From assembly GCA_947561395.2 (NCBI GenBank), contig OX387194.1, positions 14,494,048 through 14,558,047 of the forward strand: DNA of 64,000 nucleotides, read 5' to 3'. Source of the stretch: Buxus sempervirens. Its lineage: Eukaryota > Streptophyta > Magnoliopsida > Buxales > Buxaceae. The first letter of the stretch is position 1, and the number at the start of each line of letters is the position of its first letter. Shown piece after piece: positions 6,865 to 62,436 of the stretch. A program made the position numbers and the translations under genes. The notes beneath the pieces are model-generated. The model was not told the DNA's origin. It saw only the letters and a list, made by a program, of their open reading frames with translations, and ran no database searches.

Positions 6865-7026
6865 GTATCCGATATATCAGATCGGATACACTGATCCTTT
6901 TTTGTATCCGACAAGAAATGTTGGATATAAATAGCTCCTTTTGTAGCCGGCATTGTTTGTCGGATATGAAGGAAATCCTTTGTATCTGATTTGATATATC
7001 GGATACATTAAAACATGCTATAAAGG
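6865..7026 (+). promoter_or_regulatory. Promoter of antisense gene Y (Tat-2): four phased palindromes plus TATA
   Basis: Four 25-bp palindromes of the form GTATCCGAY-N7-RTCGGATAC start at 6865, 6904, 6943 and 6982, exactly 39 bp apart. TATAAA starts at 7019, 37 bp after the start of the last unit. The gene Y coding start lies 117 bp downstream. The third and fourth units are degenerate (GTAGCCGGC, GTATCTGAT). The layout is the same as in the LTRs of family A. Confidence 0.8.
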
Positions 7027-7135
7027 CAACCAACCTCGGGATTTGAGTCTTTTTTACGAGTTTTTGAGTTTAGAAAACCCCTTTTTCCCCTTTTTCTTCC
7101 TCCCACTGATTCTTAGCAAGGTCCTATCATCCTCA

Positions 7136-8870
7136 ATGGATTCTGGATCATCTTCTGCCCCATTATTGTCTGTCCACGCAGCCTCCCCTGCAAAACAACA
7201 TTTTAGATCAAAACCCCCTAACCTCACTAGGTATAACCCCATAGATTCATTCTACAATAGGTGGATTAATTCTATGACTCTTGATGAAGAGAGGAAATGG
7301 GATTCCACCCATTTAGGTCACGTTCTGCTTATCGCAAAGATTCCCTTCAAGTGGGAAGTTATTGAAGCCATGATTGGCCACTGGGTACCTGACCTAAACC
7401 TTTTTCGTTTTGGAGACCATGAGATGACCCCCACCATTGAAGAGGTTGAAACCATCTTGGGCTTGAGGTTTGCAGAGAAGGTAGTGAACCCACCCCTTCG
7501 GCCTAGTTATAAGAAAGAGGCTTCTACTTATCTGGTTATAGGGAAAAAGGATTTAGGGGATTTTGACACCCTTCTAACTTTGTCTAAGTCTTTTTTGACT
7601 GAGAAGCTCTTGAGGGGGGAGAGCAGGGAAGCTAGGTTCAATGCCCTAACCCTGATAGTGGTTAACCAACTGCTTTTTCCACGGGATGATGATGAGGTCA
7701 ACTTGGCCCTTATCTCAGTTGTATGCCAGGTTAGGGAGCAGGAGAGATTGACCCCTATGATTTTGGTAGGGATGTACCAGGCTTTATTTGACTGTTATCA
7801 CAGGAAGAAGAAGCGATTCCTATCATGTGCCCCTATCCTGTAGGTAAAATTCCTTATTTTTTCCTTTTTTTTCCTTTTTTTTTCTTTTGCTTTTTCTTTT
7901 GCTCTTTTTTTTTTCTTTTGCTTTTTTTTTTCTTTTGCCTTTTACAATATATTGAAATATCACTCCTCTTTTGCAGCTTTGGTTACTTGACCACCTGAGT
8001 CAAATTGAGGAGATCAATCGACACTTATTCCCAAGCTTGAAGGTTCCCATCTTGATGAGCATCCGGGGGTGTCCTGACATTCCAGGAGGTAAACAGGGCT
8101 GGTTTACTTTCTTGGCTACACTCCAGGATGATTAGGTGAGGTGGCCTAGTACTTATCAGCCCAATGCCGAGACCGTGATCAGCTTTTGAGACCGCAACTT
8201 TTTGGTTCTAGCTGGCTTGAGTCATGCTGTGCTTTACCTGCCTTTGAGGGTTCTTCGTTAGTTCAGAGCGACCCAGGGGATTATAATCCCAAGTGGATAC
8301 GAGGACCATCTTGGGCCACTTTCACCCACCACCATGAAGCTGAACGCTTGGTTGATGAGGGAGTGGTCCTACGTTCGTTTCATGCGGAGCCCAGTCTTCT
8401 CAGAGTCCCATGTGAAGGACTATCTCTTCTGGATCAAGGAGCAGATACAGAGTCAAGCCCCAGTACCCGAAGATCCTCCTGTAGTTTTGGCTCCTACTTA
8501 TGAAGACATCCTGGAGTCTGAGAGAGCTTCTCACAAGAGACTTCAGCAGATATGGGTACGAGAGGCCCAGGAGCTTAGGATACGAGGCCTTGATATGGAG
8601 AGGCAACTTGAAGAGCAAGTATCCCGCCGTCTTGCTATGGAAAAGCAACTTGAGGAGTAGAGGCAGGCTCGCAGCTTTGAGGTCCGGATGATACGGCAGT
8701 AGCACCAGGATGCTTTAGCCAGCCTTAGGAGCATGTGGATTAGACAGACCCTTTCAGATGAGGTCATTTCCTTCTTGAGTGATCCCACTGCGGAGGGGGC
8801 TTCTGGGGTTATTGCAGCTCAGGCAGCTCGGATTCGGGAGCTTGAGGAGCGGCTAGGGGATAGAGACTAG
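7136..8870 (+). pseudogene. Antisense gene Y (plant-mobile-domain-like), Tat-2 copy
   Basis: Two exons: 7136-7843 and 7977-8870, joined across a pyrimidine-rich intron with GT at 7844 and TTTTGCAG before 7977. Exon 1 encodes about 235 residues with FKWEVIEAMIGHWVPDLNLF followed by MTPTIEEVETILGL, the pattern of plant mobile domain / DUF7745-type proteins. Exon 2 ends in a coiled coil rich in Glu/Arg/Gln (ERQLEEQVSRRLAMEKQLEE). Stops interrupt it at 7841, 8133, 8187, 8259, 8658 and 8700; most fit C-to-T or G-to-A changes. The start was chosen where similarity to the Tat-3 copy begins. It lies antisense to pol, downstream of it. The role is unknown. Confidence 0.7.
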
Positions 8871-9607
8871 CCTTCTTTCCTGCACATTTTTTTTTCTTTT
8901 CATACCTTTGTACGAAATTAAACTCCAATAGTGGAAAGACAAAGGATTTAATTCAAAAATAAATTTTTTATATTATTCGCCTCAGAATGCTCAGATGCTT
9001 GTAAAAACAAAGGTTTTATGAAAAGTATTTGATTTATCATCACTGGCCAAAGTACATATATTTTTATTTTATTTTTATTTTTATTTTTTTGAAATTTGGT
9101 CCATATACTTAATCACCCATAGTTAAAGGAATTAAAACCAGGTTAAATAATGAAAAGGGTAATCCAAATAATGAGGGATCAAATCTGTCTATCTTAGGAC
9201 CTTTAGAGTCATCCCAAATGCTTTTTCTTCCAAAACTGACCCCATTGTTCTCAGTCTGCTCAGTCTCAATATTCATGCTGATTTTACTTCAGGCCTAGAT
9301 CTCCATGATCAACTCAACCTCTAATTTGTTCTTTCTTTTTTTTTTCTTTTCTTAGTGCCAATATTGCCCCTAGCGCCAGTTACGGTTTTCACTAGGGCCG
9401 GCTTTTGCATTCCATCATCACCAATCTTACTCTGAAATTTGAATTAACATACTAAGATCACCGAGGGCTTAGAAATAGGACGAAACAAAGGCTAGGCTTG
9501 GTTTATGAAAGAAAAGGTATTAAAGGCTCAAAATTTTTCACATGTGGAAATAGGTCGACCGGACTTACAATTATGATGAATTTTGCCCCATTTCCCCAAA
9601 ATGTATC
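8871..9607. other. Non-coding 3' region of Tat-2 between gene Y and pol
   Basis: No supported open frame. It contains blocks also found at 49659-50400 in Tat-3: AATAGTGGAAAGACAAAGG, and the motif GCCCCTAGCGCC followed by ACTAGGGCCGGC. The conservation shows this spacer belongs to the element. T-rich runs occur near 8890, 9060 and 9330. Confidence 0.6.
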
Positions 9608-10141: not shown

Positions 10142-10407
10142 TTATCCGACCAAATATGTCGGACATGCATACCTCAGTGTATAACCGACACTATTCATCA
10201 GATACAAGAAGATCAATTAGCGAGATTCGCTCCGGACGCCCGACAAATTCGCGGCGGCATTTAATTTTCGACTAATTGTGTTTTGTATCCGGAATTTAAT
10301 GCTGGATACAAAGGGACATATGTGTAGCCGGCCATGGAGGCCGGCTATGAACAAGGGACAGTGTATCCGGCATATAATGCCGAATACATTAAAATTGCCT
10401 ATAAAAA
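10142..10407 (+). promoter_or_regulatory. LTR A1 promoter: two plus three phased palindromes and TATA
   Basis: 25-bp palindromes start at 10142 and 10181 (39 bp apart), then after 104 bp at 10285, 10324 and 10363 (39 bp apart). The arms are GTATCCGGC/GCCGGATAC-like. TATAAAAA starts at 10400, 37 bp after the last unit start. The 104-bp gap holds a GCGGCGGCATTTAATTTTC block also present in LTR A2. Confidence 0.8.
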
Positions 10408-11947: not shown

Positions 11948-12118
11948 TGATCCGGCAACTCAAGCCGGATCACCTATGGCCTGTGTGTATCCGGCAATCA
12001 AGGCCGGATACCTGATAAAAAATGCAATTTTCATGATTTTGTATTCCTTGCCGAATTTTCATGTTATTTTCAGCAAAACCAAATGAATCAATAGGGTTTC
12101 TGGGTCACCCGGAAACCC
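11948..12118 (+). repeat. Downstream palindrome cluster of LTR A1
   Basis: 25-bp palindromes start at 11948 (GATCCGGC type) and 11987 (GTATCCGGC type), 39 bp apart. A third 25-bp palindrome at 12094-12118 starts GGGTTTCTGGGT and closes with the complement. This cluster lies in the transcribed part of the LTR. Confidence 0.7.
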
Positions 12119-12248: not shown

Positions 12249-14576
12249 TGTAGACACCCCAAATTGCACTGTCAAAATGATCAATAATCATAAAAAATCA
12301 TTATCTCCTTGAAGACCAGCACATAATTTGAGAAAATGAGTTTTTTCCTTGTATCCGGTAACTCAGGTCGGATACAAGTGTTTTTCTTCGTATCCGATGG
12401 AACATGCCGGATACAAGCAGACCTCAGTGTATTCGGCATCACAGGCCGGATACATTAAGGCACTTGTGTATCCGGCCTGACATGCCGGATACATAAGTTT
12501 TGCTCAAAATTAGGGTTTTCCGAGAGATTTCACTTTTTACCATCATGTCCATTAAATGAAGGGAAATCTCGGAAATAACCTTAGGGTTAAGGTTGGTGGG
12601 CTATAGACCTTATGTTGCGTCTACCATTCTCACCAACCCTAACCCTAGCCTTTGCCTATAAATAGGAGGCTCCTCCTTAAGCAAATGGCCATTAACTCTT
12701 GCCTTGAATTCTCGCCAATAAGAGCTCCAAGAGAAGAGGGAAACCGCTGCGGAAGTGCTTCCAGAATCCAGGTAAGCCTCAAACCTCTTTTTAAATTTTG
12801 TTTTTACATTCCTAGATCTAGATCTCTTCTTCTACCTTTCTGTACAATAAGGCCTTTCTATGTGTGTGAAAACCCTTCCCCGGCTCAAAGTATCTCGAGA
12901 CTCCCCCTAGCCGTAAAACGTGAAGGCGGGATCTAGGAGAAACGAGACTGGGGATTGACCCTAGTGCTAGAACCTATGTAGCATAAAGCCTTTTTGAATG
13001 ATTGAAAACCGTTTCATATTCAAAGTACCCCATGATTATCTTGAAGAACCGTGTTTAACGGGGAGAGAGAACAAAGGGAAACGATAATGGAACGGAACCC
13101 TAGGTTGTTTTAGAACCATATTTTGATGAATATGTATGCATGCTATATTGTTATATTGATCTTGTATGATTTTTCACACTTGCACATACATAGCACTATT
13201 TTGGCGGGATAGGCTCACATTTGGGGATTTATTACATTCATTGTGATAAATCACAAATAAATGGCCTCAATCAATTCTGGAATGTTTTTAAATGATTTTT
13301 AAAGGTTTTGGATTCATCTTGCATGAATCACACACACTTTATCACAGTTTTGAGTTGGTTTTGTTCAAAAAGGGCCTAACTTGATAGCAACTGTACCCTT
13401 ACTTCGGATGCTCATAACTTCATCGTCCGGATGAATTTTGGAGCGATTCGAGAACCATGGGAAAGGTGAGGCTGTCTAGTTTATGTCCACCAAATTTCAT
13501 TAATTTCTATCAAGCAGATATTTGACACCTCTCAGTCGAATTTGATTGGATAGTTCAGGTTTAAATACGGAACTTGTCACTTCGACGGAGCGCCATGTGT
13601 TCGTTTTAAGTCCGATTCGAATGATTTTTATTTCTGGGCACACCTTTATGAGTCTATTTTCAAATCCAAATGGTTTTATAATTTTTTGACTCCATTTGAA
13701 TTATTGGTAACGGATTTACTCAGAACTGTTCATCAGTACTTTTCAGGGTAAATTTGTTATCTTCGGGGCCTGTTCGGGAGACCACCCAAGGCACATCCAA
13801 TGGAATTTTTGTATAAGGCTAGTTTCTTTGGAAAGATGGCCATACAGACTTCAATCACACCAAATTTCGTGGGTTTTTATGGAGTGGATGTTTCTAGGTG
13901 AGTTTCCGAACTTGCCTACTTGCTACTTTTGATTTTCTCCGGCAGCAACTTTAAAAGAGCCATAACTCTTAGGATTTCAACCGGAATTAATTGAAATTTT
14001 GCATGAGACTATTGTTTAGCCTAATCTTTCAAATGGATTTGGTTTGATTTAATTTAAAATTGGATTTGATTAATTTCAATGGAAATGGCCTTACTTTTTA
14101 CCAAATTTCCCGGATTTGCCTCAACTTGGTTTTGTGCAACTTTTGCTGTGATTTCCATCTTTTTGTGATATTCCAGAAATGATATTGACATAAGAGAGGA
14201 TCTGGAATCCATTTGGATCTTCATGTGAAGATATCATATATTTGGCCTTTTCCAAGGTTTTTCATGACTTTTAGCAAGCTTTCTTATTTCTTTCGCATGA
14301 ACAAACACTTGGCAACCACGTCATGTGGATGAATGGGGGTGCTTAATACCTTCCCCCGTTCATAATCTAATCCCCTTACCCATCTCTGGATTTGATTTTC
14401 AAGTAGGGTTATTTTTACCTTGGAATTGGCATTTTTGCACTTTTTGCTTATTTTTAAACTTGTGGTGTACATTCACACCCAAAATCTGAATGGTGGCGAC
14501 TCTCCCAATTTTTACATCGAGCCCCGTGTGTTGACGGAGGGATGATCATTCCGGTGATTTTTTCCCGTGTGTCACA
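12249..14576 (+). mobile_element. Solo LTR B1, family B (2328 bp), nested in A1
   Basis: Starts TGTAGACACCCC and ends GTGTGTCACA, with target duplication GGTGG at 12244-12248 and 14577-14581. It closely resembles B2 at 25763-28043. The TATAAATA box is at 12657-12664 and a splice-donor-like CCAG|GTAAGC at 12771. The start sequence equals that of the Tat-3 3' LTR, so family B LTRs probably belong to the Tat elements with antisense genes. It inserted after A1 was already in place. Confidence 0.9.
12351..12492 (+). promoter_or_regulatory. LTR B1 array of four phased palindromes
   Basis: Units of 25 bp (GTATCCGGY-N7-RCCGGATAC type) start at 12351, 12390, 12429 and 12468, exactly 39 bp apart. The array begins 102 bp inside the LTR and ends about 165 bp before the TATA box. 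Confidence 0.8.
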
Positions 14577-15633: not shown

Positions 15634-16920
15634 TCAAGGAAAATACTTTTTTACTGCATCAGAGTTAATTGGCTCAGGAAAATCTGTCCCATCTATTTCT
15701 GTCAAGATGAGTGCACCCCCTGACAGGATCTTCTTGACAAAATACGGCCCTTCCCAATTCGGCTTGAAATTACCACGAGGATCTTCCAAAAATAGTAAAA
15801 TTTTCTTTAGCACCAATTTTCCTTCTTGGAAAGTTCTGGGCTTCACCTTCTTATTGTAGGCCCGGGCCATTCTCCTCTGGTACAATTGGCCATAACAAAG
15901 CGCTTTCAATCGTTTCTCTTCTATCAGGTTGAGTTGATCACTTCTTGATTTTATCCATTCAACTTCTTCCAATTCAGCTTCCATGAGCACTCTGAGTGAT
16001 GAGATTTCTACTTCCACTGGTAAAATTGCTTCCATCCCATAGACCAGGGAATACGGGGTTGCCCCAGTTGAAGTCCGGATTGAGGTTCTATAGGCATGTA
16101 GAGCAAGTGGTAGCATTTCATGCCAATCTTTGTAACTTACTACCATCTTCTGAATGATTTTCTTTATATTCTTGTTTGCTGCTTCTACTGCCCCATTCAT
16201 CTTCGGCTTGTATGGAGCGGACTTGTGATGGGTAATCTGGAACTACTCACATAACTTCTTCATATCCTTGTTCTTAATATTTGAAGCATTGTCTGATACT
16301 ATGGCACTTGGCAGTCCATAGCGACAAATGATATTGTGCTTCAAAAATTTAATAACATGGTTTCTTGTGATATTCGCATACGAAGCCCCTTCTACCCACT
16401 TAGTGAAATAATCAATCGCTACCAGGATAAATCTGTGCCCGTTCAATGCCTTAGGGGAAATCATACTGATGACATCTATGCCCCACATGGAAAAGGGCCA
16501 TGGTGATGTCATGTTGTGCAACTCACTTGGGGGTGCATGCTTGTTATCTGCATATATCTGATATTGATGACACCTCCTGACATGTATACAGCAATCATGC
16601 TCCATTTTCGACCAGTAATATCCCAACCTTAGAATCTTCTTTGCAAGCATGTGTCCGTTCATATGGGGTCCACAGACTCCTCCATGTACAGTCTCGATTA
16701 ACCTTTCTGATTCAGCCTTAGCAACACATCTGAGCAGAATGTCATTATGTGATCTCTTGTACAAATGTCCACCACTTAGCAGGAATTGATCGGCTAATCT
16801 CTGTATTGTCCTTTTCTCAGTAGAAGTGGAATTTTCCAGCAAACTCCGATTGTTCAAGAAATTTTGATGTCTTGAAACCATGGTGCTTCCTCTTTTGGTG
16901 CTCCCTCTAGAACAAGACAA
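15634..16920 (-). pseudogene. Integrase of Tat-2
   Basis: Two frames, 16243-16920 and 15634-16200, make an integrase. The N-terminal zinc module has HGGVCGPHMNGH and CIHVRRCHQYQ, where the last cysteine of the C-x2-C pair has become Tyr (intact in Tat-3). The DDE core shows D in MWGIDVI, D in IVSDN and E in GAVEAANKN. The C-terminal part includes FLEDPRGNFKPNWEGPY. A stop near 16243 and other lesions break the frame. The enzyme would insert cDNA into host DNA. Confidence 0.85.
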
Positions 16921-17735
16921 TAAGCCGGTTCATCTCTGACCTCAATTTCCAGTGGTTTGATGTCTACCCCTTTTGGCATGCTGACCATTGAAGCCAATGT
17001 TGCTAAAGCATCCGCAAACTGATTCTTAGCCCTTGGCATATACCCTTGGCATATAGTTGAAGGAAATTCGAGTAAAGTTTGTACTTATTTCTTCCAAATA
17101 CTGGTGATAGGGGATCAATTTGTGATCCTTGGTTTTCCATTCACCAGTTGTTTAGAAGATGATAAGACTCGAATCTCCTTATACGTCAAGTTCCTCCACT
17201 TCATGATCTATGGCGGCTTGCAACCCAATTATACGTGCTTCATACTCTGCAATATTATTGGTGCACTAGAATCTCAGCTTTACTGCGATCAGGATGTGTG
17301 AACCATCTGGTTTTACCAAGATTGCCCCTATTCCGTTTCCATTCATTTTGGCGGCCCCATCGAAGAACATCTGCCAAGAACTTTCACTTTCCTCTTCTTC
17401 AGTAAACAGAATTGCTTCATTAGGAAAGTTGGTCTTCAAAGGTTAGTATTCTTGCAAAGGATGTGCAACCAGGTGATCAGCAATGGCGTGGCCCTTAATC
17501 GCCTTCTGAGTAATGTACGTGAGGTCAAACTCAGATAGTAGCAGTTGCCACTTTGCCATTCTGCCAGTTAGTGTCGGTTTCTCAAATAAATACTTCAGAG
17601 GGTCCATCCGGGATATCAATAATGTGGAGTGACTAAGGGAGTAATGCCGTAGCCACTGAGTAGCCCACACTAGAGCACAACAAGTCTTTTCCAATGATGA
17701 GTACTTGGCTTCATATTCTGTGAATTTTACTCAGA
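16921..17735 (-). pseudogene. RNase H and archaeal-type RNase H of Tat-2
   Basis: Frame 17443-17694 holds the RT-linked RNase H end (EKTCCALVWATQWLRHY, AIADHLVAHP). The reading then passes through damaged frames to 16990 with the aRNH signature; the same region is one open frame in Tat-3 (52087-52932). The second RNase H is the hallmark of the Tat lineage. Several frameshifts occur between 17040 and 17440. Confidence 0.7.
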
Positions 17736-17998
17736 TAGTAAATTGCCCTTTCTTTTCTACCGGTCTCATCATGCTGCCCCAAGACACATCCCATCGATGT
17801 TTCCAACACTGACAAGTACAGGATCAGTGGTCTTCTTGGAGTTGGTGGCACTAGCACAGGTAGATTCAGTAAATACTTCTTTATTGTATCAAAGGCTTGC
17901 TGGCAATCCTCATTCCAGATCGTCGGGTTGTCCTTTTTCAGAAGCTTGAAAATTGGTTCACAGATAGCAGTGAGTTGTGCTATGAACCGGCTTATGTA

Positions 17999-19232
17999 CT
18001 AAATTCTTCCAAGAAAACCCCTATCCTCCTTCTCTGTTCTGGGTGATGGCATATCAATAATTGCCTTTGCTTTAGCCGGGTCGATTTCAATTCCCCTTCT
18101 GCTCACAATGAACCCCAGCAAATTTCCTTGATGTAGCCCCAAAAACGCATTTAGCCGGGTTGAGCCGTAGACTGTACTTCCTGAGACGATCAAACACCTT
18201 CTTCAGATTGATCAAGCGGTCCTCTTCTTTGCACGATTTGGCAATCATATCGTCCACGTAGACCTCCATCTCCTTATGGATCATGTCATGGAATAGTGCT
18301 GTCATGGCCTGTTAATATGTTGCCCCAGCGTTCTTAAGCCCAAACGGCATGATTGTATAGTGGAAGGTGCCCCAAGGTGTGATGAACGCCGTTTTCTCTT
18401 GATCTTCCTTAGCCATTTTGATCTGATTGTATCCCGAGAAACCATCCATGAACAAAAATAGGCTATGTACAGTAGTACTATCGACCAGAATGTCGATGTG
18501 TGGAAGCGGAAAATCATCCTTTGGGCTTGCCTTTTTCAGATCTCTATAGTCCACGCACATTCTAACTTTCCCGTCCTTCTTTGGTACTGGCACTATGTTT
18601 GCAAGTCATTCGGGGTACGTGGAGACAGCCAAAAATCCTGCTTGGAATTGCTTGACCACTTCGTCCTTGACCTTCAAGGTCCATTCAGGTTTCAATCTTC
18701 TCAGCTTCTGCTTAATTGGCTTGACCCCTGGCAACATTGGCAACTTGTGCACCACCATGTCAGTGTCCAACCCCGGCATGTCCTGATACGACCAAGCGAA
18801 CACATCCTTGTAATCTGTCAAGAACCGTGTCATTTCACCACGCTGCACATCAGATAGGCATGCCCCGATTTTCACTATTTTTGGGTCATCTTCGGTCCCA
18901 AGATTTATTGAAATGGTCTCCTCCATATTAGTTTGGACCCCCTTTTCATGACGTTCCAATTGATATTCAATTCCCTTTGGAACGTCTTCTTCTTCGACCT
19001 CGGTCTCTTCTTCAATCCCCATGAGGTCAAATTCAAGCTCAAGGTCGAAGTCATACTTAACCTGGTCTAATTCGGTTTGCTTATATGGTTCATAAGTGGT
19101 TTGGACCTTTTTGAAAAAATTAAATTTTCTAGAAAAAATAGAAAAATCTTTTTGGGTTTTTTGTGAGCCTTCTGCAAAAACTCTCCTTGAAGACGAAGGC
19201 TCATTAAAACCTTCAGGGAAATGGCATTCCAC
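17999..19232 (-). pseudogene. Reverse transcriptase of Tat-2
   Basis: Frames 18606-19232, 18312-18593, 18087-18305 and 17999-18193 form the RT. Motifs in order are VRMCVDYRDLKKASPKDDFP, MDGFSGYNQIKMA, TIMPFGLKNAGATY, then MEVYVDDMIAKS (catalytic YVDD), and the block KCVFGATS. The N-terminal linker is acidic (EEETEVEEED). Stops near 18306 and 18600 and a frameshift near 18140 inactivate it. Confidence 0.85.
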
Positions 19233-19588
19233 TAATGGAGTTTTTTTTTGGAAGCCGCATCAGTTTGCCAAACAAACGCTGCTTTAAAGGTAAGGGGAGT
19301 TTCCTTCCAATTGTTTAATACAAAATTTTCGGGAGCAGGGGAAATTGTGCAAGCCTGCTCCTCAAACCCAGAATCCGATGCCATCATCACCGGATGAGTT
19401 GTACTGCTCTTTTCTGCTGTGGGGCCCAGTCCAAATATGACATCATCTAGAATCTTCACCTTTGCCCAGTCAATGAAAGGCAGCTCCTTATCTGCTTCTG
19501 TCTCATCGCCCTCAGTCATGGCGAAGAAAGCCTCAACCTCTTCGGAGAAGTCCGTCCCTTGCTCTGGCTGTGGCCCAGGCCCGCCCAC
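19232..19588 (-). pseudogene. Tat-2 protease-RT linker
   Basis: A 118-aa acidic frame between protease and RT, with FGLGPTAEK and a DSGFEEQACTIS segment. It is matched by 54199-54459 in Tat-3, which ends where element A3 inserted. No known domain. It meets the RT frame through a frameshift at the run of T near 19245. Confidence 0.6.
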
Positions 19589-19660
19589 TATTTCAAGTAT
19601 AGGAGATGGGTTGTAGGGTTGCAGGGTTGGAACATAAGGCCTTTGGGAAAGATTGAAATT

Positions 19661-20680
19661 TCAGTAAGGGGGTTTGGACTGATCCATAGGAAGAGATAGT
19701 TGGATTATATATGAGGGTTTAGGAAAATTTTCCGTTAAGTGGGGGAATTTTCCTTTACTTCTTTTCTCTCCTTCTTCATGCTTCATCCTTCTCCAGCCTC
19801 TAGGTTTAAACCCCAGTCCTACTTTAGGAACCAGCTTCTTCGCCTTAATTGGCTCCAACATTCCTTGTAAATTGATTCCCAGGCCTTTCCCCGGGTGAAA
19901 GTGGTATTTTACCATCACTTTCCTTACCATTTTCTTTGCAGTTGTCCCTTTCCTTTCTTTTTTCTCACACCCCTCAGGTATGAAATTGACCGTCTCAAAC
20001 TGAAATGAGTGGAACGCAATCTTGTTGACAGTTAAATCCACATTTATCAAGGGTACATCAGGTGACACAATGGGAGGCACCAAGTTCTCAGCTAGGACAG
20101 TTATCACCCTTTGCCCTCTTATGTATTTCACCCTTTGGTGGAGCGTGGATGGTATTGCCCTAGCCGAATGTATCCACGGCCTCCCTAGGAGCAGATTGAA
20201 GGCTGCTGGAATATCCATCACTTCAAATGTGATGTTGAAAATATTCAGTCCAATTGTGACCGGCAGTTCAATCTCCCCTAGGGAGTGTATCTTAGAGCTA
20301 TCAAAAGCCATCACTATCCTCCCATTCGGCTTGATCTTCGACTGATCCAGACCAAGCTTGGCAAAAGTGATTAATGGGTAGAAATTTAATGCCGACCCAT
20401 TGTCAATTAAAACCCGTGCCACCATACTGCCCTTACAAAGCATTGTGATGTAAAAAGGGTTGACATGGTAGCACCCACCTGGGCTTATCTCACATTCATA
20501 GAAACTTATCACATTATGTGACAAGATTTGACCAACCATTTTGCCTAGTTGGTTCGGATCGATAGTCTGAGATACATGTGCACTCTGTAGCACCCTTAAT
20601 AATGCGTCCCTGTGCTTTTTTGAGTTTAGCAAAAGGCCCAGTATTGAAATCTGGGCCGGGACCTTGTTTAGCTGATCCAC
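19661..20680 (-). pseudogene. Tat-2 aspartic protease with G-patch-like linker
   Basis: A 339-aa open frame. The protease active site is VLIDNGSALNFYPL near residue 90 (Asp-Asn-Gly) and the C-terminal block is FNLLLGRPWIHSA near 165. After about residue 255 a glycine-rich linker has HPGKGLGINLQGML and VGLGFKPRGW, resembling a G-patch. The enzyme would process the polyprotein. The frame is intact over its length but is cut off from gag and RT by lesions. Confidence 0.75.
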
Positions 20681-47895: not shown

Positions 47896-49658
47896 ATGGC
47901 TTCTCTTGCTCTGTCCTCCTCTATTGACGAAGTCCCTCCTGCAAGACAACCTTTTAGATCAAAACCACGCAATCTTACAAGATATAACACTGTGGATTCA
48001 TTCTATAACAGGTTGGTTAACTCCATAACCCCAGAAGATGATGTCCAATGGGATTCTATCAACTTTGGCCACATCCTGCTCATCCCTACCATTCCCTTTA
48101 AATGGGAAATTATTGAGGCTTTGATGGGACACTGGGAACCTCAACTGAATCTTTTCTGTTTTGGTGATAAAGAGATGACCTCTACAGTTGCGGAGATTGA
48201 AACAATCCTTAGCCTGAGGTTTTTAGAGAAGGTAGTGAACCCGCCCCTTAAGCCTAGCTACAAAAATGAAGCTTCTACTTTTTTGGGTATAGGGAAGAAA
48301 GACTTAGGGGAGTTTGACTCACGGCTAACCCTATCCAAGACTTTTTTGACTGAGAAACTTATAAGGAATGACAACCAACAGGCCCAGTTTAATGCCTTGA
48401 CTTTGATAATAGTTAATCAACTACTTTTCCCACGGGGTGATGAGGAGGTTGACTTGGCTCTCATTTCAGTCATATGCCAAGTTAAAGAGCGGGAGAGGTT
48501 AGCCCCTATGATATTGGAAGAGATGTACAAAGCCTTGACTGACTACTATTCCAGGAAGAAGAAGCTCTTTCTTGCATGTGCCCCTATCCTACAGGTACAA
48601 AAAACTTCTTTTTTCCTTCTCTTATTTTCTTTCTTTTTTTTTTCTTTCTTTTTTTTTTCTTTTTCTCTCTTTTTTTTTCTTTTTTTTCTTTTTTTTTATT
48701 TTTTATATTTTATATTTTTATATTTTTTTTTCTTTCCAATTGAAATATTTCCCCCTTTTTGCAGCTTTAGTTACTTGACCATCTGAGTCAGATCGAGATG
48801 ATAGATCGACGCTTTTCTACAAGAATGAAAGTTCTTGTTTTGATGAGCAACCGTGGGTGTCTTAACATCCAAGGAGGCAAGCAAGGTTGGTTCACTTTGT
48901 TGGATATTCTCCAGGATGATCAGGTGAGATGGCCTGGCACTTATCAACCAAACCCTGAGACAGTGATCAGCTTCAGAGATAGAAACTTCCTGGTCCTGGT
49001 GGGCTTAAGATCGGCTGTCCTTTATCTTCCTTTGCCGGTCCTTCGGTAGTTTGGAGGGACCCAGGGGATCATGATCCCAGATGGATATGAGGACTTTTTG
49101 GGGTCACTTACACCAGCTACCATGGGGCTATGTGCTCGGTTGATGAAGGAGTGGTCCTATGTTCGCTTCCTGAAGGGCTCAGTCTTTTCTGAGTCACATG
49201 TGAAGGACTATCTTTTCTAGATCAGAGAGCAGGTTCAGAGTCATGCCTCAGTACCAGAGGATCCTCCTGCCGTTCTTGCACCCACTTATGAAGACATACT
49301 GGTTTCTGAGAGAGCATCCCACAAATGGCTTCAACAAATTTGGGTACGAGAGGCTCAAGAACTTATCATACGAGGTATTGATCTGGAGAGGCAGATTGAA
49401 GAGCAGGTGTCTCGCCGTGTTGCTTTGGAAAAGAAACTTGAAGAGCAGAGGCAGGCTTGTTACTTTGAAGTCCGAGTGATACGGCAGAAGTACCATGATG
49501 CATTAACTAGCCTTAGAGATATGAGGATCAAGCAAGCCTTTTCAAATGAGGTCATCTCCTTCTTGAGTGATCTGGATGCAGAGGGAGCTTCTGGGATTAT
49601 TGCGACTTAGGCGGCTCGGATTCAAGAGCTTGAGAAGCGGCTAGGGGACAGGGACTAG
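47896..49658 (+). pseudogene. Antisense gene Y (plant-mobile-domain-like), Tat-3 copy
   Basis: Exon 1 is 47896-48594 (233 codons) and exon 2 is 48765-49658, joined by an intron with CAG|GTACAA and TTTTTGCAG|CTT. The fold-defining segment is FKWEIIEALMGHWEPQLNLF, then MTSTVAEIETILSLRF, as in plant mobile domain / DUF7745 proteins. The C-terminus is a coiled coil (LERQIEEQVSRRVALEKKLEE). Stops occur at 48768, 49047, 49218 and 49608. An upstream in-frame ATG at 47812 is not conserved in Tat-2, so 47896 was chosen. The product and its role are unknown. Confidence 0.72.
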
Positions 49659-50635: not shown

Positions 50636-51800
50636 TCAAGGAAAATACCTTTTTACTGCATCAGAGTTAATTGTCTCAGGAAAATCTTTTCCATCCATTC
50701 CTGTTAAGATGAGTGCACCCCCTAATAGGACCTTCTTGACAACATAAGGCCCTTCCCAATTTGGCTTGAATTTACAGCGAGAGTCTTCCAAAAATGGCAA
50801 GATTTTCTTTAAAACCAAATTTCCTTCTTGGAAAGTTCTAGGCTTCACTTTCTTATTGCAAGCCTTGGCCATTCTTTTCTGATACAACTGGCCATGACAA
50901 AGTGCCTTCAAATGCTTTTCCTCTATCAAATTGAGTTGATCATGTCTTGACTGTATCCATTCAGCTTCTTCCAATTCTGCTTCCATTAGCACTCTCAGTG
51001 ATGGGATTTCAACTTCAACAGGTAAAACTGCTTCCATTCCATAAACTAGGGAATACGAGGTTGCCCTGGTAGAAGTCCGGATTGAGGTTCTGTAGGCATG
51101 TAGAGCAAGTGGTAGCATTTCATGCCAATCTCTGTGACTTACTACCATCTTATGAATTATTTTCTTTATATTCTTATTTGCTGCTTCTACTGCCCCATTC
51201 ATCTTTGGTCTGTACGGAGCTGACTTGTGATGGGTAATCTGAAACTGCTCACACATCTTCTTCATATCCTTGTTCTTAATATATAAGGCGTTGTCTGATA
51301 CTATAGCATTTGGCAAACCATAGCGACAAATGATATATTTCAAAACCTTAAGAACATGGTTGCTTGTGATATTTGCATACGAAGCTGCTTCAACCCACTT
51401 GGTGAAATAATCAATTGCTACCAGAATGAATTGTGCCCATTTGATGCCTTTAGGGAGATCATGCCAATGACATCTATGCCCCACATGGAGAAAGGCCATG
51501 GTAAGGTCATGTTGTGTGGCTCACTCGGTGGTGCATGCTTGTTATCCACATATATTTGGCACAGATGACACCTCTTAACATGTATACAACAATCGTGCTC
51601 CATCGTTGATCAATAGAATCCCAATCGCAGAATCTTCTTTGCAAGCATGTGCCCATTAATATGGGGTCCACAGACTCCTCCATGTACAGTCTCAATCAAC
51701 CTTTCTGACTCAGCCTTGGTGGCACATCTGAGTAGGACATCATTGTATGATCTCTTATATAACTGTCCACCACTTAGGAAGAACTATCCTGCTAATCTCT
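50636..51800 (-). pseudogene. Integrase of Tat-3
   Basis: Frame 50636-51499 (287 aa) covers the DDE core and C-terminus: ILVAIDYFTKWVE, IVSDN, MNGAVEAANKNIKK, FKPNWEGPY. The zinc module is in 51418-51603 and upstream, with CIHVKRCHLCQ intact. The first catalytic Asp (MWGIDVIGM) is in the other frame, so a frameshift near 51430-51490 separates it from the rest of the core. The last residues match Tat-2 (SDAVKRYFP). Confidence 0.85.
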
Positions 51801-52086
51801 ATATTGCCCTTTTTTCTTTAGGAGTAACACATTCTGGTAAGCTTTGATTATTCAAGAAATTCCTGATATTATGAAACCACGGTACTTCTTCTTCTGGTGT
51901 TCCTTCTAGAACAAGACAATAAGCCGGTTCATTTCTGATTTCAACTTCTAGGGGTTTGATATCTACTCCTTCTGGAATACTGATCATTGAAGCCAATGTT
52001 GCCAAAGCATCTGCAAACTAATTCTTGGCCCTTGGCATATAGCTGAAGGAAATTTGAGTAAAATTGGTGGATATTTCTTCCAAATA
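51801..52086 (-). pseudogene. Tat-3 aRNH-integrase connector
   Basis: Frames 51799-52005 and 51941-52126 contain MATLASMISIPEGVDIKPLE and EEVPWFHNIRNFL, equal to 16854-17039 of Tat-2. It links the second RNase H to integrase. Stops (for example the TAG at 52019 on the minus strand) break it. Confidence 0.6.
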
Positions 52087-52932
52087 CTAGTGATATAGGA
52101 TCAATTTGTGATCTTTGGTTTTCCATTCACTAGTTGTTTGGAAGATGATAAGACTCGAATCTCCGTATATGTCAGGTTCCTCTACTCCATGGTCTAGAGC
52201 AGCTTGCAACCCAATTATACATGCTTCATACTCTGCAATGTTGTTTATGCACTGGAACCTCAACTTCACTGCGATTGGGATATGTGAACCATCCGGCTTG
52301 ACCAAAACTGCCTCAGTCCCGTTCACATTCATGTTTGCGGCCCCGTCGAAGAACATCTGCCAGGAACTTTCACTTTCCTCTTCCTCAGTAAACAAAACTG
52401 CCGTATCAGGAAAATTAGTCTTTAAAGGCTGATAATCTGGCAAAGGATACTCAGCTAAATGATCGGCGATTGCTTGACCTTTAATTGCTTTTTGAGTGAC
52501 ATATTTGAGGTCAAATTCAGAAAGCAACAGCTGCCATTTGGCCGTTCTGCCAGTTAGTGCCAGTTTCTCAAATAAGTACTTCAGTGGGTCCATTCTGGAT
52601 ATCAACGATGTGGAATGACTGAGGAAGTAATGTCTCAGTCTTTGGGTTGCCCATACTAAAGCACAACAAGTCTTCTCTAAAGGCAAATACTTGGCTTCAT
52701 ATTCTGTGAACTTCTTACTCAGATAGTAAATAGCCCTTTCCTTTCTGCCTGTCTCATCATGTTGTCCCAAGACACACCCCATTAATGTCTCCAAAACTAA
52801 CAAGTACAGAATCAATGGTCTTCCCGAAGTTGGTGGCACTAGCACTAGTGGATTCAGCAAATATTCCTTTATCTTGACAAAGGCCCGTTGGCAATCGTCA
52901 TTCCAGACCGTTGGGTTGTTCTTTCTTAGCAA
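52087..52932 (-). pseudogene. RNase H plus archaeal-type RNase H of Tat-3
   Basis: One open frame of 281 aa. Residues 1-165 are the end of RT and the RT-linked RNase H (EKTCCALVWATQRLRHYFLS). After a linker, the second RNase H shows FDGAAN (195-200), NIAEYEACIIGL (231-242) and YGDSSLI (256-262), giving the catalytic Asp, Glu and Asp. This duplicated RNase H defines the Tat lineage. It would remove RNA from RNA:DNA hybrids. Confidence 0.85.
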
Positions 52933-53019
52933 CTTGAAAATTGGTTCACAGGTGGCAATGAGCTATACTATGAACCTACTGATGTACTGAATTCTTCCAA
53001 GAAAACCCCTAACTTCCTT

Positions 53020-54450
53020 CTATGTTTTGGGTGGTGGCATTTCAATAATCGCCTTTGCTTTAGCAGGATCAATCTTAATCCCCCTTTTGCTCACTATAAA
53101 TCCCAACAATTTTCCTGATGTAGCCCCAAAGACACATTTTTCTGGGTTGAGATGTAAACTGTACTTCCTAAGTCGGTCAAACACTTTCTTCAATTTGATC
53201 AAGTGGTCTTCTTCTTTACAAGATTTGACAATCATATCATCTACGTAGACTTCCATCTCCTTGTGGATCATATCATGGAACAGTGCTGTCATGGCCCACT
53301 GGTAGGTTGCCCGGGCATTCTTAAGCCAAATGGCATAACAGTGTAGTGAAAAGTACCCCAAGGTGTAATAAAGGCTGTTTTTTCTTGATCTTCCTTTGCC
53401 ATCTTGATTTGATTATATCCAGAGAAACCGTCCATGAATGAGAACAGGCTATGTACAGTAGTATTATCAACCAGAATGTCGATATGTGGAAGTGGAAAAT
53501 CATCCTTTGGACTTGCCTTGTTAAGATCTCTATAATCCACACACATCCTGACTTTCCCATCCTTTTTTGGTACTGGCACTATATTTGCAAGCCACTTGGG
53601 GTACGTGGAGACTGCCAAAAATCCAACTTGGAATTGTTTGACCACTTCATCTTTGACCTTCAGTGTCCATTCAGGTTTCAGCCTTCTTAACTTTTGCTTA
53701 ACCAGCTTAACCTCTGGCAGAATTGGAAGCCTGTGCATAACCATGTCAGTATTTAACCCTGGCATATCCCGATATGACCATGTGAACACATCCTTGTAGT
53801 CTGCCAAAAATCGCGACATTTCATCAAGCTGCACGTCAGATAGGCATGCCCCAATCTTCACTATTTTTGAGTCATCTTTGGTCCCTAGATTTATTGAAAT
53901 GGTCTCCTCAATATTAGGTTGAACACCCTTTTCATGACGCTCCAATCGATATGCAATTTCTTTAGGAGGGTCATATTCTTCGACCTCAGTCTCTTCTTCG
54001 ATCCCCATTAGGTCAAAGTCGAGCTCAAGGTCGAAGTCATATTCAACCTGATCTAATTCCGTTTGCTTATATGGTTCATAAATGGTTTGGACCTTTTTGA
54101 AAAAATTAAATTTTCTAGAAAAAATAGAAAAATCTTTTTGGGTTTTTTGTGAGCCTTCTAAAAAAGCTTTTCCTGAAGACGAAGGCTCATTAAAACCTTC
54201 AGGAAAAGGGCCTTCCACTAATGGAGTTTTTTTTTGAAGCCGCGTCTGTTTGCCAATCAAACGCTGCTTCAAAGGTAATGAGAGTTTCCTCCCAATTTTT
54301 CAAAATAAATTTTTCTCGAGCAGGTGAAATGGTGCAAGCCCACTCCTCAAACTCAGAATCCGATGCCATCATCATCGGATGAATTGTACTGCCCTTTTCT
54401 GCTGTGGGGCCCAATCCAGATATGACCTCATCCGGAATTTCCACTATTGC
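53020..54450 (-). pseudogene. Reverse transcriptase of Tat-3, interrupted by A3
   Basis: Frame 53289-54272 (327 aa) has the acidic linker, VRMCVDYRDLNKASPKDDFP, MDGFSGYNQIKMA and TVMPFGL, then a frameshift. Frame 53020-53361 continues with MEVYVDDMIVKSCKEEDHLI (catalytic YVDD). 54199-54450 is the protease-RT linker, matching 19232-19588 of Tat-2, and is cut where element A3 begins. Protease and gag lie beyond the window on the far side of A3. Confidence 0.85.
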
Positions 54451-54885: not shown

Positions 54886-55148
54886 ATAACCGGAATTAAA
54901 TTACTGTTAAACACAAATTGTGTATAACCGGAATTCAATTCCGATTCATAAAGTGAAATCAAAAATTGCTAGACAGATTCTCTGATTCCGTACCTGACAA
55001 GCTTTAATTACTAATCAAGTGCAAAAGTAACCAAAATTCAATTTCGGTTACAAATAAAAATGGTATAACCAAAATTGAATTTCGGTTATACTGAAAAAGC
55101 TGTGTAAACGAAATTCAATTTCGGTTACCTTTTTTTGGTCTATAAATA
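54886..55148 (+). promoter_or_regulatory. LTR A3 promoter: TAACCGAAAT-type phased palindromes and TATA
   Basis: Units start at 54886 and 54924 (38 bp), then after 103 bp at 55027, 55065 and 55104 (38 and 39 bp). Arms are GTAACCGAAATT/AATTTCGGTTAC with a centre of a single base. TATAAATA starts at 55141, 37 bp after the last unit start. Same grammar as A1 and A2 with a different sequence. Confidence 0.8.
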
Positions 55149-56591: not shown

Positions 56592-56799
56592 TTAACCGAA
56601 ATTGAATTTTGGTTAAACCAAAAAATGTAGTATAACCGGAATCCAATTTCGGTTATACTGCATTTCAGGCTTGACCGAAATTAATTTTCGGTAACTTCAA
56701 ATTATAATAAAAACCTGATTTTTTGGTGTTTGCTGATTTGTGGTATTGCTTGAGCCGAACCGGTTGAACCAACAGGGTTTCCGGGTGACCCGGAAACCC
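56592..56799 (+). repeat. Downstream palindrome cluster of LTR A3
   Basis: Units at 56592, 56632 and 56671 (about 39-40 bp apart) use the same TAACCGAAAT arms as the promoter of this LTR. The GGGTTTCCGGGT palindrome follows at 56775-56799, 104 bp after the last unit start. Confidence 0.75.
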
Positions 56800-58825: not shown

Positions 58826-61049
58826 TGTAAAAGCCCGAATTTTCACGTAATAAATAAATAAATGATAAATAAAAGGAAAAATGATTTTAAGTCCTAGTTA
58901 AAATAATAAGTGAAGATCTAGAGGATAAGTAATTCAAATAAGTAGTAAGTTGTAAATAAAGAAAGAATTTTAAGGAAATTAGCCTAAAAGGGTATTTTGG
59001 TAATTTTCAGAAAAGGTAATTAATAAATAGATCATTAAATAATAATTAGGGTTAGAAAATAGAAGAAAATAATCTATTTAGACAATTTAGAAATTAAAAG
59101 AAAGTAATAAAAGCCCAAATGTGGAAAAAAAAGGGTAAACAGGAGATTTCAATTCTTAATTTGGAGAAGATAAGGTTTTAGGTGATATTAAGGTTTAATT
59201 AATTATTATGCATGAAAATAGGTTGTAAGTAGGAGTTTAGATGATAAGAGATTTAATTAATAATGTTTTAGTAGAAAAATAAAAGGTGGAGAAAAAGTAG
59301 GAATTAATTAGAATGGGTTAGACTTTAATTAGACCATGGTTGGGTTAGCCCAAATTAAAGTAGCCTATTAGGGTTGGTTTAGGACTTCTAACACCTAATA
59401 TAAATAGGAGATTAAGGTTAGACAAGAGAGATTTTTCGTGGGTTTATTATTGAGAGAAAAGAGGGAGAGAAAGGAAGAAGGCTGCTAATGGAGATGTCTG
59501 ACCAGCCATCACCAAACCGTGATCGGGAAAAATCTGTATGGTGGATTACCTTTAAATTTGGGGGTTTTGTTCATGACTAATGGAGCTATAATGTGAACAG
59601 TGGAGATGTGAATCAGAGAACTCTAGCTTGGTGCATTTGAAAGCAAAAGTGAGGTCCAGAATTAGAAGCTTCAATGGAAGAAGGATTTTAGCGTACAAGG
59701 CAAGTAGTAACCCTTGGAAAACGTGAGGAACTGCATGATTTCGTTTTCTATGATTTCATATGGTTTCAATGGATTAGTCGGAACTGTATTTACATGGAAT
59801 CAAGGTGCTTATATTTCAATGATTGGTATTCTTGATGGATTTGTCAAATTAAAGAAGAAAACTTAGTTTGATTATGCAAATAAATGTAGGAGGGTATTTA
59901 ATTAATAAGAATTAATCAAGAAGGCTTTAGGTATGTTTTAGAATGTTAGTAGATTAATTTAGACCAAAGAAACATATAGCAAAAGCATAAAAATCCGAAC
60001 TTTGTAAATCTGGAAATTTCTGTTAAAATTTTCACGAGCACCTAGGATCGCCTAGCCCTGTAGAGGTAGGCGCTCTATGTAAAATTTGCAGATTTTGGGG
60101 ATTTTGTAATATGAATAAATATCCAATAATTTTTCTGATTAGTTAAGCATGTTAGCATCTTTATAAGGACCAAATTAAGGTATAAAAAAATTATAAAATT
60201 AAATTGGAAAGATTAATCAATAAATTGAAGCTTATGATGAAAGGTTGTGCATAAAAGGGTCTAAATGGTATGGGATATTGATAGATATAATTCTACTGGA
60301 ATTCCCAGGGTAAAAACATCTCCTAAACTTTATTTTAGGTCTGTAGGACATGCTGGAGAAATAAAATCTAGAAAACCTAAATAAAAACTATCTTAGGTGT
60401 GAAGATAGGAAATTGGATTCTAATAAATGAATTAATAATGAAAACTCTAAGTACGATTTGATTTACTTTATTTGAGCTTTCAATATGAATGTTGGCTACT
60501 GGAATTGTATAAACTCTGAGCTTTATCAAACATATGATACATGAGTTTTATTTTGAATATATTTGGGAAATTGCATATGTTATCCTGAAAAAGCCTTTAA
60601 TTGAATTTGTAAGGATTGAATCATGGTTTTCCCATGGTATAAGCACCTTACTTTTGCATCCCTGGAAGTGCTGAAAATGAAAACCCTGGCAGAAAGTCAA
60701 ACCCCGAGGGGACAAAAAGTTGACTTTTTTATTAGGTGATAGTTGGCCACCTTGCTTTATCTCAGTAGATAGGAAATCCCGAAACGGTTCCAACGCAACT
60801 GAGTTTGCTGAAAAAGAGTCCGGATGAAGGTTCTGCGGGCGGTCAAACTTGAAGGGGAGCCGAAAGTTGACTTTTTGCTAAACCCTGAATTTGCTGCTAA
60901 ACTCTAGCTCAGTGGATAGAGGATGTCGACCCGGTTCCAACGCAACTGAGTTTGCCAGAATCGAAGCTCAAATGAGAGAGTTATGAGCAATCCTTGGTCA
61001 AAAATAAACTGTCCACGTGGCAAACTGCGCCACATGGACGCCCCCTTGC

Positions 61050-61249
61050 TTAACCCTTAAGTAAACAAAAATATTAACAAACAGAGTCTTTCTTAACCCC
61101 TAAGTAAAAAATATTAACAAAAAAGTCTTTCTTAACCATTAAGCAAAAGTAATAAGTCACAAATAAGAAATAACAATAAAAAAGTCACTTTTGATAAAAT
61201 ATTTAAAAATTGGTCTTTCTTAACCCTTAAACAATCTCTTCTATAAAAG
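61050..61249 (+). promoter_or_regulatory. LTR A4 promoter: TTAACCCTTAA repeats and TATA
   Basis: The 11-bp palindrome TTAACCCTTAA or close variants start at 61050, 61092, 61132 and 61220, inside a repeat with AGTCTTTCTTAACCC. TATAAAAG starts at 61242. The spacing (42, 40, 88) is looser than in the other LTRs. Confidence 0.55.
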
Positions 61250-62228
61250 GGGAGGGGGTGGGATGCATTGGGGGTGGAGCACACTTTGTCTCCCACCATT
61301 TTTCTTCTCCAAGAGCTCCAACCTGTCTCCCATCTTTCCCAAGCACCCAAAACCTCCTCTCAAGCCTTCTAAACCTTTCCCACTCTCTTCTTCTCCCATT
61401 TTTGCTCAAGGAGGAGGCCTAGGAGATTTTTTTGGAGTGAAGGGGGTGCTGCATAAGGGCTGCTCCAGCAGCCACTCGTACTCCAAGGAGGCTTCACACC
61501 CATCCCCCAAAGGTTTGAAACCCAAGGTGAGCTTCCTTGGGTCATGTTCTTTAACATATGTGAATATTAACTCATTTGAAGCATTATTTCATGCTATGTG
61601 TTGCTATTTTCATTTTCTTATGGTTTCTTCTCATTTAAAAAGAGGGTGTTCCTCTTCTCTTGCATCTGTGGTATCCCTTCCTTTATAAATCCCCTCTTTC
61701 CTTTCTTTAAAAGAGCTTCCTTCCCTAGTTAGATGGTGAGGCATATGGTTACATTATAGGGCATGCATGATATATGTTTGTTTCTTCTCATTCATGCATG
61801 GCATAATCACTATTGTTCAAGCATGCATGAGGATCCCCATCGTCTATCTCCATTCTGAAGCCATGTGTTGCTACTTTAGGATTGCCTGAGTGTCATGTAG
61901 TGGCTGTTTTCTTTATGAGTTCCTTTTACTAAGATTGGGTGCCATTTTATTTGCTGTTTTTTGAATCATATGAAGTCCCGGCCATCTCATGCATGCACCC
62001 CATGAATGTGGTTGTGTACAAGAGCACACACATCAGGAGGCAACCTCCAATGCCTCTTCCTTCCCTTTTTCGTGTTGTAAAAGTTCCTAAAAGTGACCAA
62101 ATTGGGGCATTCCCTCTCACCTGAACTAATGTGGGCTCACACAGGAGCCCACACAATCCCTGGAACACCCTAGATGACCCAAAAACCCAACCCCAATGCA
62201 AGAATCCAAAAAATTAGCTTCTGTAGGT

Positions 62229-62436
62229 TGATCCGACAACTCAGGTCGGATCAATAGAGACCTACGCGTAGCCGGCAGTAGATGCCGGATACATTGAGCC
62301 TTGTGTGTAACTGGCATCTCAGGCCGGCTACACTACCAGAATACCATTTTTGCTATTTTGTGATATTGTGCTGTTATTTTGGTTTGTTTGATCAATCCGG
62401 GCGAACTAGTAGGGTTTTTGGGTCCCTCGGAAACCC
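62229..62436 (+). repeat. Downstream palindrome cluster of LTR A4
   Basis: 25-bp units start at 62229, 62268 and 62307, exactly 39 bp apart (GATCCGAC, GTAGCCGGC and GTAACTGGC arms). The decayed GGGTTTTTGGGT palindrome follows at 62412-62436, 105 bp after the last unit start. Confidence 0.7.

Follow-up and report, generated by a model that had tools for sequence, protein, structure and literature searches.

Arrays of 25-bp palindromes recur at fixed spacing in a 64-kb stretch of the 676.5-Mb genome of Buxus sempervirens (contig OX387194.1, positions 14,494,048 to 14,558,047; hereafter the window), which is crowded with nested Ty3/gypsy (Ogre-like) retrotransposons. The recognisable coding sequence of the window is that of Ty3/gypsy, with minus-strand frames for reverse transcriptase (RT), RNase H, integrase and gag at 163-4608, 16243-22663 and 50636-54299. 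Matches to RT_RNaseH and RVT_3 in 52087-52962 give two RNase H signatures after RT, as in Tat elements. Two plus-strand genes run antisense to pol and match DUF7745/plant mobile domain (PMD). The antisense gene of element 2 has its exon 1 at 7136-7834 (Pfam E 2.2e-17, frame 6995-7843) and a 3' exon at 8262-8870, in which the heptads look coiled-coil-like by eye and which contains stops in this copy. The antisense gene of element 3 has its exon 1 at 47896-48594 (Pfam E 5.5e-16) and one or more decayed 3' exons at 48771-49655. PF24924 exceeds its cut-off in both genes, and PF10536 (E 6e-8 and 2e-7) stays below its own.

Palindrome arrays in the window

Laid out in register, the window holds 52 tabulated units of 25 bp, each made of a 9-bp arm, a 7-bp centre and a second 9-bp arm, in 15 arrays. 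Beyond these 52, distal units stand at 10142 and at 44027/44066, and 61045-61148 holds a degenerate TTAACC array with a 39-bp period. The initial annotation had reported about 58 palindromes, a fair estimate that our total approaches when these are added, in 12 arrays, which is too few, as at least 15 can be counted. Perfect 9+7+9 palindromes number 14 in the window against 0.35 expected, a 40-fold excess, and those of at least 8/9 number 48 against 10.1 expected (20 Markov-1 simulations).

To assess spacing, we masked minisatellites and compared pairs of palindromes of at least 7/9, at spacings of 20-100 bp, with 100 block-wise simulations. The leading spacing was 39 bp, with 19 pairs (simulated mean 0.24, maximum 2); 28 bp gave 6 pairs (mean 0.32, maximum 2), and the top count in any simulation at any spacing in the range was 3. 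Four further spacings exceeded 3, namely 78 bp (9 pairs), 56 bp (5), 31 bp (4) and 63 bp (4), of which 78 and 56 are the doubles of 39 and 28. Within arrays, every step of the GTATCCG type was 39 bp (22 of 22, ten arrays) and every step of the TGTCCGCA type was 28 bp (11 of 11, three arrays). Palindromy is weak (4-6 of 9) in several units of the 28-bp type. The exact 28-bp spacing had been claimed before and stands; a fixed 39-bp step without exception holds for GTATCCG, but not for the TAACCG type, in which the two arrays of one long terminal repeat (LTR L2) give steps of 38, 39, 40 and 39 bp.

Two of the arrays lie upstream of the antisense genes. Array P_aORF2 (6865-7006, plus strand; 4 units of GTATCCG type, 39 bp) precedes the gene of element 2, and its TATAAA (7019-7024, plus strand) starts 13 bp past the last unit. 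Array P_aORF3 (47641-47777, plus strand; 5 units of TGTCCGCA type, 28 bp) is followed by TATAAA at 47798, at +21. Two others lie outside LTRs: on the leader side of element 2 is E5 (24546-24687, minus strand; 4 units, 39 bp), and before LTR T4 is S36 (36085-36193, plus strand; 4 decayed TGTCCACA units, 28 bp).

The remaining arrays lie within LTRs, the bounds of which we resolved by comparing the window with itself and inspecting the ends. Two nested kinds were found, L (TGTAAGC...GCGCACA) and T (TGTAGACACCCC...CACA). These LTR-like units are long (2.3 kb and more), and several (L1, L3, L4, T1 and T2) are flanked by 5-bp target site duplications (TSDs). LTR L1 (9608-15384, plus strand; TGTAAGC...GCGCACA, TSD GTATC) has LTR T1 nested within it. 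It carries array L1a (10285-10387, plus strand; 3 units, 39 bp), with TATAAA at 10400, 13 bp beyond, and, upstream of this proximal array, the distal stretch 10142-10205 (plus strand), where a second unit at about 10181 is distorted and was placed by eye. Its array L1b (11948-12011, plus strand; 2 units, 39 bp) has no TATA within 90 bp. LTR L4 (37564-44673, minus strand; TSD GGAAG) holds a nested insertion and carries, all on the minus strand, array L4a (43884-43947; 2 units, 39 bp), with TATAAA 13 bp beyond, a distal pair (44027-44090) 104 bp from the proximal array, and array L4b (38606-38669; 2 units, 39 bp). LTR L2 (54450-57740, plus strand, ends approximate) carries arrays L2a (55027-55128, plus strand; 3 units of TAACCGAAATT type, steps 38/39), with TATAAA 13 bp beyond, and L2b (56592-56695, plus strand; 3 units, steps 40/39). 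In LTR L3 (60638-63396, plus strand; TSD CATGG), the degenerate TTAACC array, also on the plus strand, is accompanied by array L3b (62229-62331, plus strand; 3 units, 39 bp). The second arrays, in the 3' half of the L-type LTRs (11948, 38606, 56592 and 62229), have no adjoining TATA box.

Among the T-type LTRs, the solo LTR T1 (12249-14576, plus strand; TGTAGACACC...CACA, TSD GGTGG) has an array that lies 102 bp from its start (12351-12492, plus strand; 4 units, 39 bp). The solo LTR T2 (25763-28043, plus strand; TSD CTAAT) has a like array at 25853-25994 (plus strand; 4 units, 39 bp), and that of T3 (30117-30258, minus strand; 4 units, 39 bp) lies 103 bp from the LTR start at 30361 on the same strand. 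LTR T4 begins at 35744 on the minus strand with the T-type start TGTAGACACCCC, and its array (35507-35643, minus strand) consists of 5 units of TGTCCGCA type at 28 bp. T4 is adjoined upstream by a polypurine-tract-like sequence, AAGGGGCAGT. Because this tract resembles the one preceding the 3' LTRs of the full elements that we fetched from elsewhere in the genome, we infer that T4 is the 3' LTR of element 3.

Spacing, symmetry and position across the genome

The palindrome arrays are confirmed as a real feature that extends genome-wide. The unit GTATCCG-N11-CGGATAC occurs 30,553 times in the genome (reversed control, 0). For CGGATAC-N14-GTATCCG, in which the spacer is 14 bp, the count is 16,882 (control, 0), and for spacers of 15-21 bp combined it is 65 (control, 5). 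This comparison covers the long side of the spacing (14 versus 15-21 bp) for one motif, GTATCCG; in that range, it bears out the excess of 39-bp spacing expected in other copies and contradicts free drift of the units. Because the genome copies are related, these counts show constancy and not independent events. The 28-bp rule was checked outside the window at 20 antisense promoters.

Individual steps tell the same story. We fetched the 38 places listed first on contig 1 (L005-L042), those from a search with the bare unit being picked regardless of spacing and those from the search with the 14-bp spacer being picked by spacing. Their 114 steps of at most 160 bp comprised 107 of 39 bp, four of 38 bp and one each of 40, 64 and 104 bp. 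A further 20 stretches of 10 kb (L043-L062; 200 kb) were taken systematically from contig 1, regardless of their content, and they contain 27 pairs of palindromes of at least 7/9 at 39 bp, where simulation gives 0.88. At 28 bp, the pairs listed for this sample include none of TGTCCGCA type. A second peak, perhaps a minisatellite, appeared at 41 bp (16 pairs of at least 7/9 against 0.62 simulated).

What is kept in these arrays is dyad symmetry and distance. Within arrays of the 39-bp type (12 arrays), identity between units is 0.80 in the arms, 0.44 in the centres and 0.33 in the spacers; for the 28-bp type (3 arrays), the corresponding values are 0.73, 0.52 and 0.32. Spacers thus diverge in sequence but not in length, in agreement with the earlier statement that unit sequence varies while length and phase do not. 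The two arms of one unit also go together. Over the 32 GTATCCG units, they pair in 250 of 288 cells. When arms were re-dealt over all 32 units, the shuffled sets averaged 214.6 pairing cells and none of 5000 reached the observed value; when they were re-dealt within arrays, the average was 236.1, and 36 of 5000 reached it. In the fetched loci, the inner dinucleotides are symmetric in 71 of 120 distinct units against 34.4 expected if they were independent, a descriptive figure since the units are related.

The arrays also recur at set places in the elements. On contig 1, the LTR array lies 90 bp from the LTR start in 17 of 21 scored LTRs (the rest at 81, 102, 102 and 116 bp). A mid (leader) array follows about 3.74-3.78 kb downstream in L018, L026 and L040, the three elements examined for this, and arrays stand at antisense-gene promoters in L011, L015, L019, L023, L027 and L041. 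One or two units are found about 530-660 bp before the 3' LTR in five of seven 3'-LTR loci (L012, L016, L020, L028 and L042), and none was called there in L024 and L031. Over about 1 kb, identity within seven LTR pairs is 98.15-100%, which makes these array-bearing elements young copies. In L-type LTRs (L029, L054 and, in the window, L1 and L4), distal units lie 104 bp from the proximal array, and L029 and L054 have another unit 192-193 bp further upstream.

These places help to read two arrays of the window. The flank of E5 resembles, by eye, the mid array of the fetched full elements, and we therefore rejected the reading of E5 as an LTR start, which an alignment of T1 to it had suggested. 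The upstream flank of S36 is 75% identical over 120 bp to an antisense promoter region (L077; E 2.6e-16), so S36 may be an antisense promoter too; a tblastn search found no PMD gene after it within the window.

Many of the arrays stand at a fixed distance from a TATA box. Of 30 array ends in the window, four (P_aORF2, L1a, L4a and L2a) have a TATAAA that starts exactly 13 bp beyond the final unit, L2a doing so with a different motif. Because the three L arrays are homologous, the four cases represent at least two independent promoters. The same +13 distance is seen in all six fetched 39-bp antisense promoters and at the fetched L-type LTRs L029 and L054, with 12 bp at L058. Among 17 promoters with at least 2 called units in a 28-bp array, nine have a TATA-like box (variants allowed) at +21. 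In the remaining eight, the last called unit is further upstream, and in seven of them its distance to the box is, to within 1 bp, 21 bp and an integral number of 28-bp periods; at L066, the box is 11 bp off, and the 28-bp array contains one 39-bp step. That step (in G000:C21:15585674-15585914) amounts to 11 bp extra, near one helical turn, and is a single case. Two promoters with GTATCCGAA arrays have a TATA-like box at +11.

Motif families and the antisense gene

We distinguish five motif types with a common CCG core. GTATCCGRY and GTATCCGAA have a period of 39 bp and TAACCG one of 38-40 bp; RTGTCCGCA and RTGCCCGTA have a period of 28 bp. The motif can differ between close relatives at the same place: T4 shares with T1-T3 the first 19 bp of the LTR and the array position, whereas motif and period differ (TGTCCGCA/28 versus GTATCCG/39). 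If T4 is indeed its 3' LTR, element 3 has one 28-bp type in the LTR (T4), before the 3' LTR (S36) and before the antisense gene (P_aORF3). Such motif differences, common to the dispersed arrays of one element, support the element-specific recognition that the initial annotation had proposed.

To compare antisense genes with the motifs before them, we took 20 of 150 scored matches (from 6011 candidates) with 241 bp of upstream sequence. These 20 represent most of the top of the list and some lower matches, with matches starting at residue 13 omitted, and they were scored against a menu of four motif sets and two periods (cut, 13 of 18) that was fixed after the sequences had been seen. Fourteen of the genes are 79-83% identical to that of element 3, and 12 of these have at least 2 RTGTCCGCA units at 28 bp; L063 has a single weak unit and L069 none. 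Among the six more distant genes, the motif is RTGCCCGTA with a 28-bp period in four and GTATCCGAA with a 39-bp period in two. Seven element-2-like antisense genes (one in the window and six fetched) have GTATCCGRY at 39 bp. The gene at L069 (G000:C11:18847318-18847558), 81% identical to that of element 3, has no array upstream and a TATA box at the usual place.

The protein itself has been under constraint. The exon 1 proteins of elements 2 and 3 are 68% identical, with a ratio of nonsynonymous to synonymous divergence (dN/dS) of 0.16 at a dS of 1.16, which is near saturation; for the 3' exon, dN/dS is 0.21. These low ratios indicate that the protein was held by selection before the copies in elements 2 and 3 decayed. 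Among 7999 candidates scored in the protein database, no plant relative from outside this genome reached E<=1e-3, and none were found in IMG/VR, GTDB contigs or plasmids. A single sequence match of the antisense exon in the PDB (E 0.78) was taken as chance. The 3' exon of element 3 and neighbouring frames had no Pfam match. Element 3 has a second antisense gene region at 45179-47375 (plus strand), with frames of 120, 148 and 210 residues that have no Pfam match even at E 10.

Several other features of the elements were noted. GTGGCGACTC lies within six LTR copies, on the plus strand in T1 (14493), T2 (27963), L5 (29802), L2 (57681) and L3 (63319) and on the minus strand in L4 (37610). It sits about 46-83 bp ahead of the terminal CACA where the end is known, and in several copies TSDs enclose the whole unit; L1 has GGCAACTC in its place. 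We take GTGGCGACTC to resemble a tRNA-Arg primer binding site. A primer binding site is expected just 3' of an LTR, whereas the GTGGCGACTC copies fall inside the LTR-like units. There is a 79-bp minisatellite of 14 copies at 23123-24228, on the leader side of element 2, and downstream of the T4 array a tandem repeat of 421 bp is present in 2.8 copies (34177-35339). A minus-strand frame with a G-patch domain (19661-20701) is situated between gag and pol of element 2.

Candidate operators and their possible reader

What could hold symmetry and distance constant while sequence changes? On balance, we favour the explanation that the arrays are promoter-proximal operators of PMD-bearing Ogre-like elements, read by a dimer in rigid register, and that the factor is probably the element's own antisense protein. 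Each 25-bp palindrome would be read by a symmetric dimer, and neighbouring dimers, set at an exact spacing fixed by the family, would contact one another or the adjoining core promoter. Most likely, the palindromes are filled in register by a dimeric regulator that works on the core promoter beside them, and this regulator is in turn most likely a product of the element. The same operator is present at four places, namely the LTR (for the sense RNA), the 5' leader and the sequences upstream of the antisense gene and of the 3' LTR, which would let one factor control both transcription units. If that factor is the antisense protein (DUF7745/plant mobile domain with a coiled coil), it would act on its own family as an activator or de-silencer and would also be self-regulating, and family-specific motifs would hold families apart. 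A dimeric factor sitting in register had been suggested for this locus from the outset. Dyad-symmetric sites at exact spacing, co-varying arms and the fixed TATA distance of many arrays agree with it, and protein binding remains what we infer from them. The 11-bp difference between the two periods, close to one helical turn, is suggestive, there being only two periods over five motif types; exact spacing is a stronger constraint than helical phase alone.

We consider a more far-reaching version possible but more tentative. Here these retrotransposons may have a sequence-specific code of their own: the antisense PMD protein would bind in-register palindromic operators at several promoters of its own family, so that sense and antisense transcription would be activated or de-silenced jointly. 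Families would split as motif and protein change together while keeping 28 or 39 bp. Self-recognition like that of VANC proteins would then have been invented a second time, independently, in class I elements.

Several observations weigh against these proposals. Across the LTR copies T1-T3, the arms keep up with the LTR flanks in identity without surpassing them, and centres and spacers fall behind: T1 and T3 are 79% identical in flanks, 79% in arms, 29% in centres and 55% in spacers, T1 and T2 are 83, 85, 64 and 69% identical, and T2 and T3 are 76, 69, 32 and 60% identical, respectively. The relatedness of the genome copies makes their counts non-independent. In the sense direction, the arrays of T-type LTRs have no TATA within 40 bp (0 of 21). 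The Pfam scan recognised no DNA-binding domain in the antisense protein, and two proteins that are 68% identical would need to read different half-sites. The correlation between antisense-gene clade and upstream motif is partly expected from linkage; because promoter and gene are linked, coevolution and descent alike predict it. Finally, the stronger point, the shared motif of dispersed arrays, rests on element 3, with T4 as its putative LTR, and on a few fetched elements of the GTATCCG type.

Alternatively, the arrays could bind host transcription factors, for example MYB/GARP- or AP2/ERF-like proteins that recognise TATCC or CCG cores, with different families captured by different factors and the spacing reflecting the geometry of a host enhanceosome. 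We regard this as rather unlikely. The TATCC and CCG cores do, we assume, resemble host factor motifs, the five motif types have the CCG core in common, and the Pfam scan recognises no DNA-binding domain in the antisense protein. LTRs often recruit host factors, as a review relates (PMC12786077). Against a host factor are the dispersed arrays of element 3 (T4, S36 and P_aORF3), which are alike in motif and jointly unlike those of other families, and the LTR arrays that differ between relatives at the same place. To our knowledge, a dimer that reads two 9-bp arms in an exact row of 28 or 39 bp would be unusual among host factors, and we count this against such a reader.

Two other explanations dispense with a DNA-bound dimer. 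The units might function as structured nucleic acid, forming hairpins in RNA or cruciforms in DNA, for instance in RNA packaging or small-RNA production; 9-bp stems, 7-nt loops and co-varying arms would fit. We nevertheless think this very improbable: the slight G:T skew among arm mismatches over the 52 units (31 G/T versus 25 A/C) is below that expected for RNA wobble, the antisense-promoter arrays lie upstream of a TATA box at fixed distance, and the exact spacing between units is left unexplained. Or the arrays might be functionless by-products of tandem repetition (slippage or unequal exchange), uniform by descent. The copies are related, tandem repeats are common in these elements, both in the window and according to PMC11963269, and the arms of T1-T3 are not more conserved than the flanks. 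Yet arms and spacing are kept while spacers are near random and centres vary, single units show symmetric co-variation inside them, the TATA distance is fixed, and the motif differs among families while the period stays at 39 bp (38-40 bp for TAACCG) or 28 bp. This leaves descent without function the least probable of the explanations weighed here.

The arrays present a concrete, testable target, with a defined 25-bp palindrome, a register and a TATA distance. If the antisense PMD protein binds them, this would explain how the expression of very large retrotransposons is controlled family by family, supply natural protein-motif pairs for studies of specificity, and give a lead on the former role of host PMD proteins such as MAIN and MAIL1. 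Even if the reader is a host factor, more than 16,000 exactly spaced dimer-like sites in a single genome are a striking regulatory load.

How do these elements compare with known systems? In the literature searched, which is thin on subscription papers and bioRxiv, there was no description of such palindrome arrays, for Ogre or otherwise. PMD occurs in 57% of Ogre elements (PMC6317226), and the window agrees with the Ogre lineage in having PMD in an accessory open reading frame, long LTR-like units and two RNase H signatures. Antisense accessory genes of plant Ty3/gypsy elements are common; their function is described as unknown, and a regulatory role has been proposed (PMC7264820, PMC11963269). 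As in Retand/Grande-type elements (TRP28; Grande gene23), the antisense gene lies between pol and the 3' LTR, has its own promoter and is a suggested regulator (PMC11963269, PMC7264820). Unlike in Retand, there was no match to TRP28 (PF04195) among the frames scanned, a subset of the antisense frames, and the available part of PMC11963269 describes variable tandem arrays, with palindromes appearing there only in the title of a reference. The host PMD proteins MAIN and MAIL1 are needed for the expression of genes with a promoter motif ("DOWN") (PMC7156037). They differ in being host genes, and neither palindromic arrays nor direct binding is described in the accessible portion of that paper.

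The initial annotation had drawn a parallel to the VANC proteins of VANDAL transposons (Arabidopsis VANC21 and VANC6). VANDALs are DNA transposons. The elements here, by contrast, have RT, RNase H, integrase and gag domains, LTRs and 5-bp TSDs. VANC has DUF1985/DUF287, whereas the antisense exon 1 matches DUF7745 and PMD only; spacing here is rigid and often tied to TATA boxes, and the word stem "palindrom" occurs 0 times in the main text of the VANC papers PMC5735166 and PMC10398659. According to these two papers, VANC proteins bind family-specific repeated motifs, and a meeting report mentions unpublished work on VANC-DNA coevolution (PMC12859917). As in VANDALs, short non-coding motifs are repeated in association with the transposon and differ between related families, and a second protein gene stands beside the mobility genes (PMC5735166, PMC10398659). 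Family-specific short motifs repeated in non-coding regions are what we find here as well. The parallel therefore holds in its logic, while the protein family (DUF7745/PMD) and the class of element differ.

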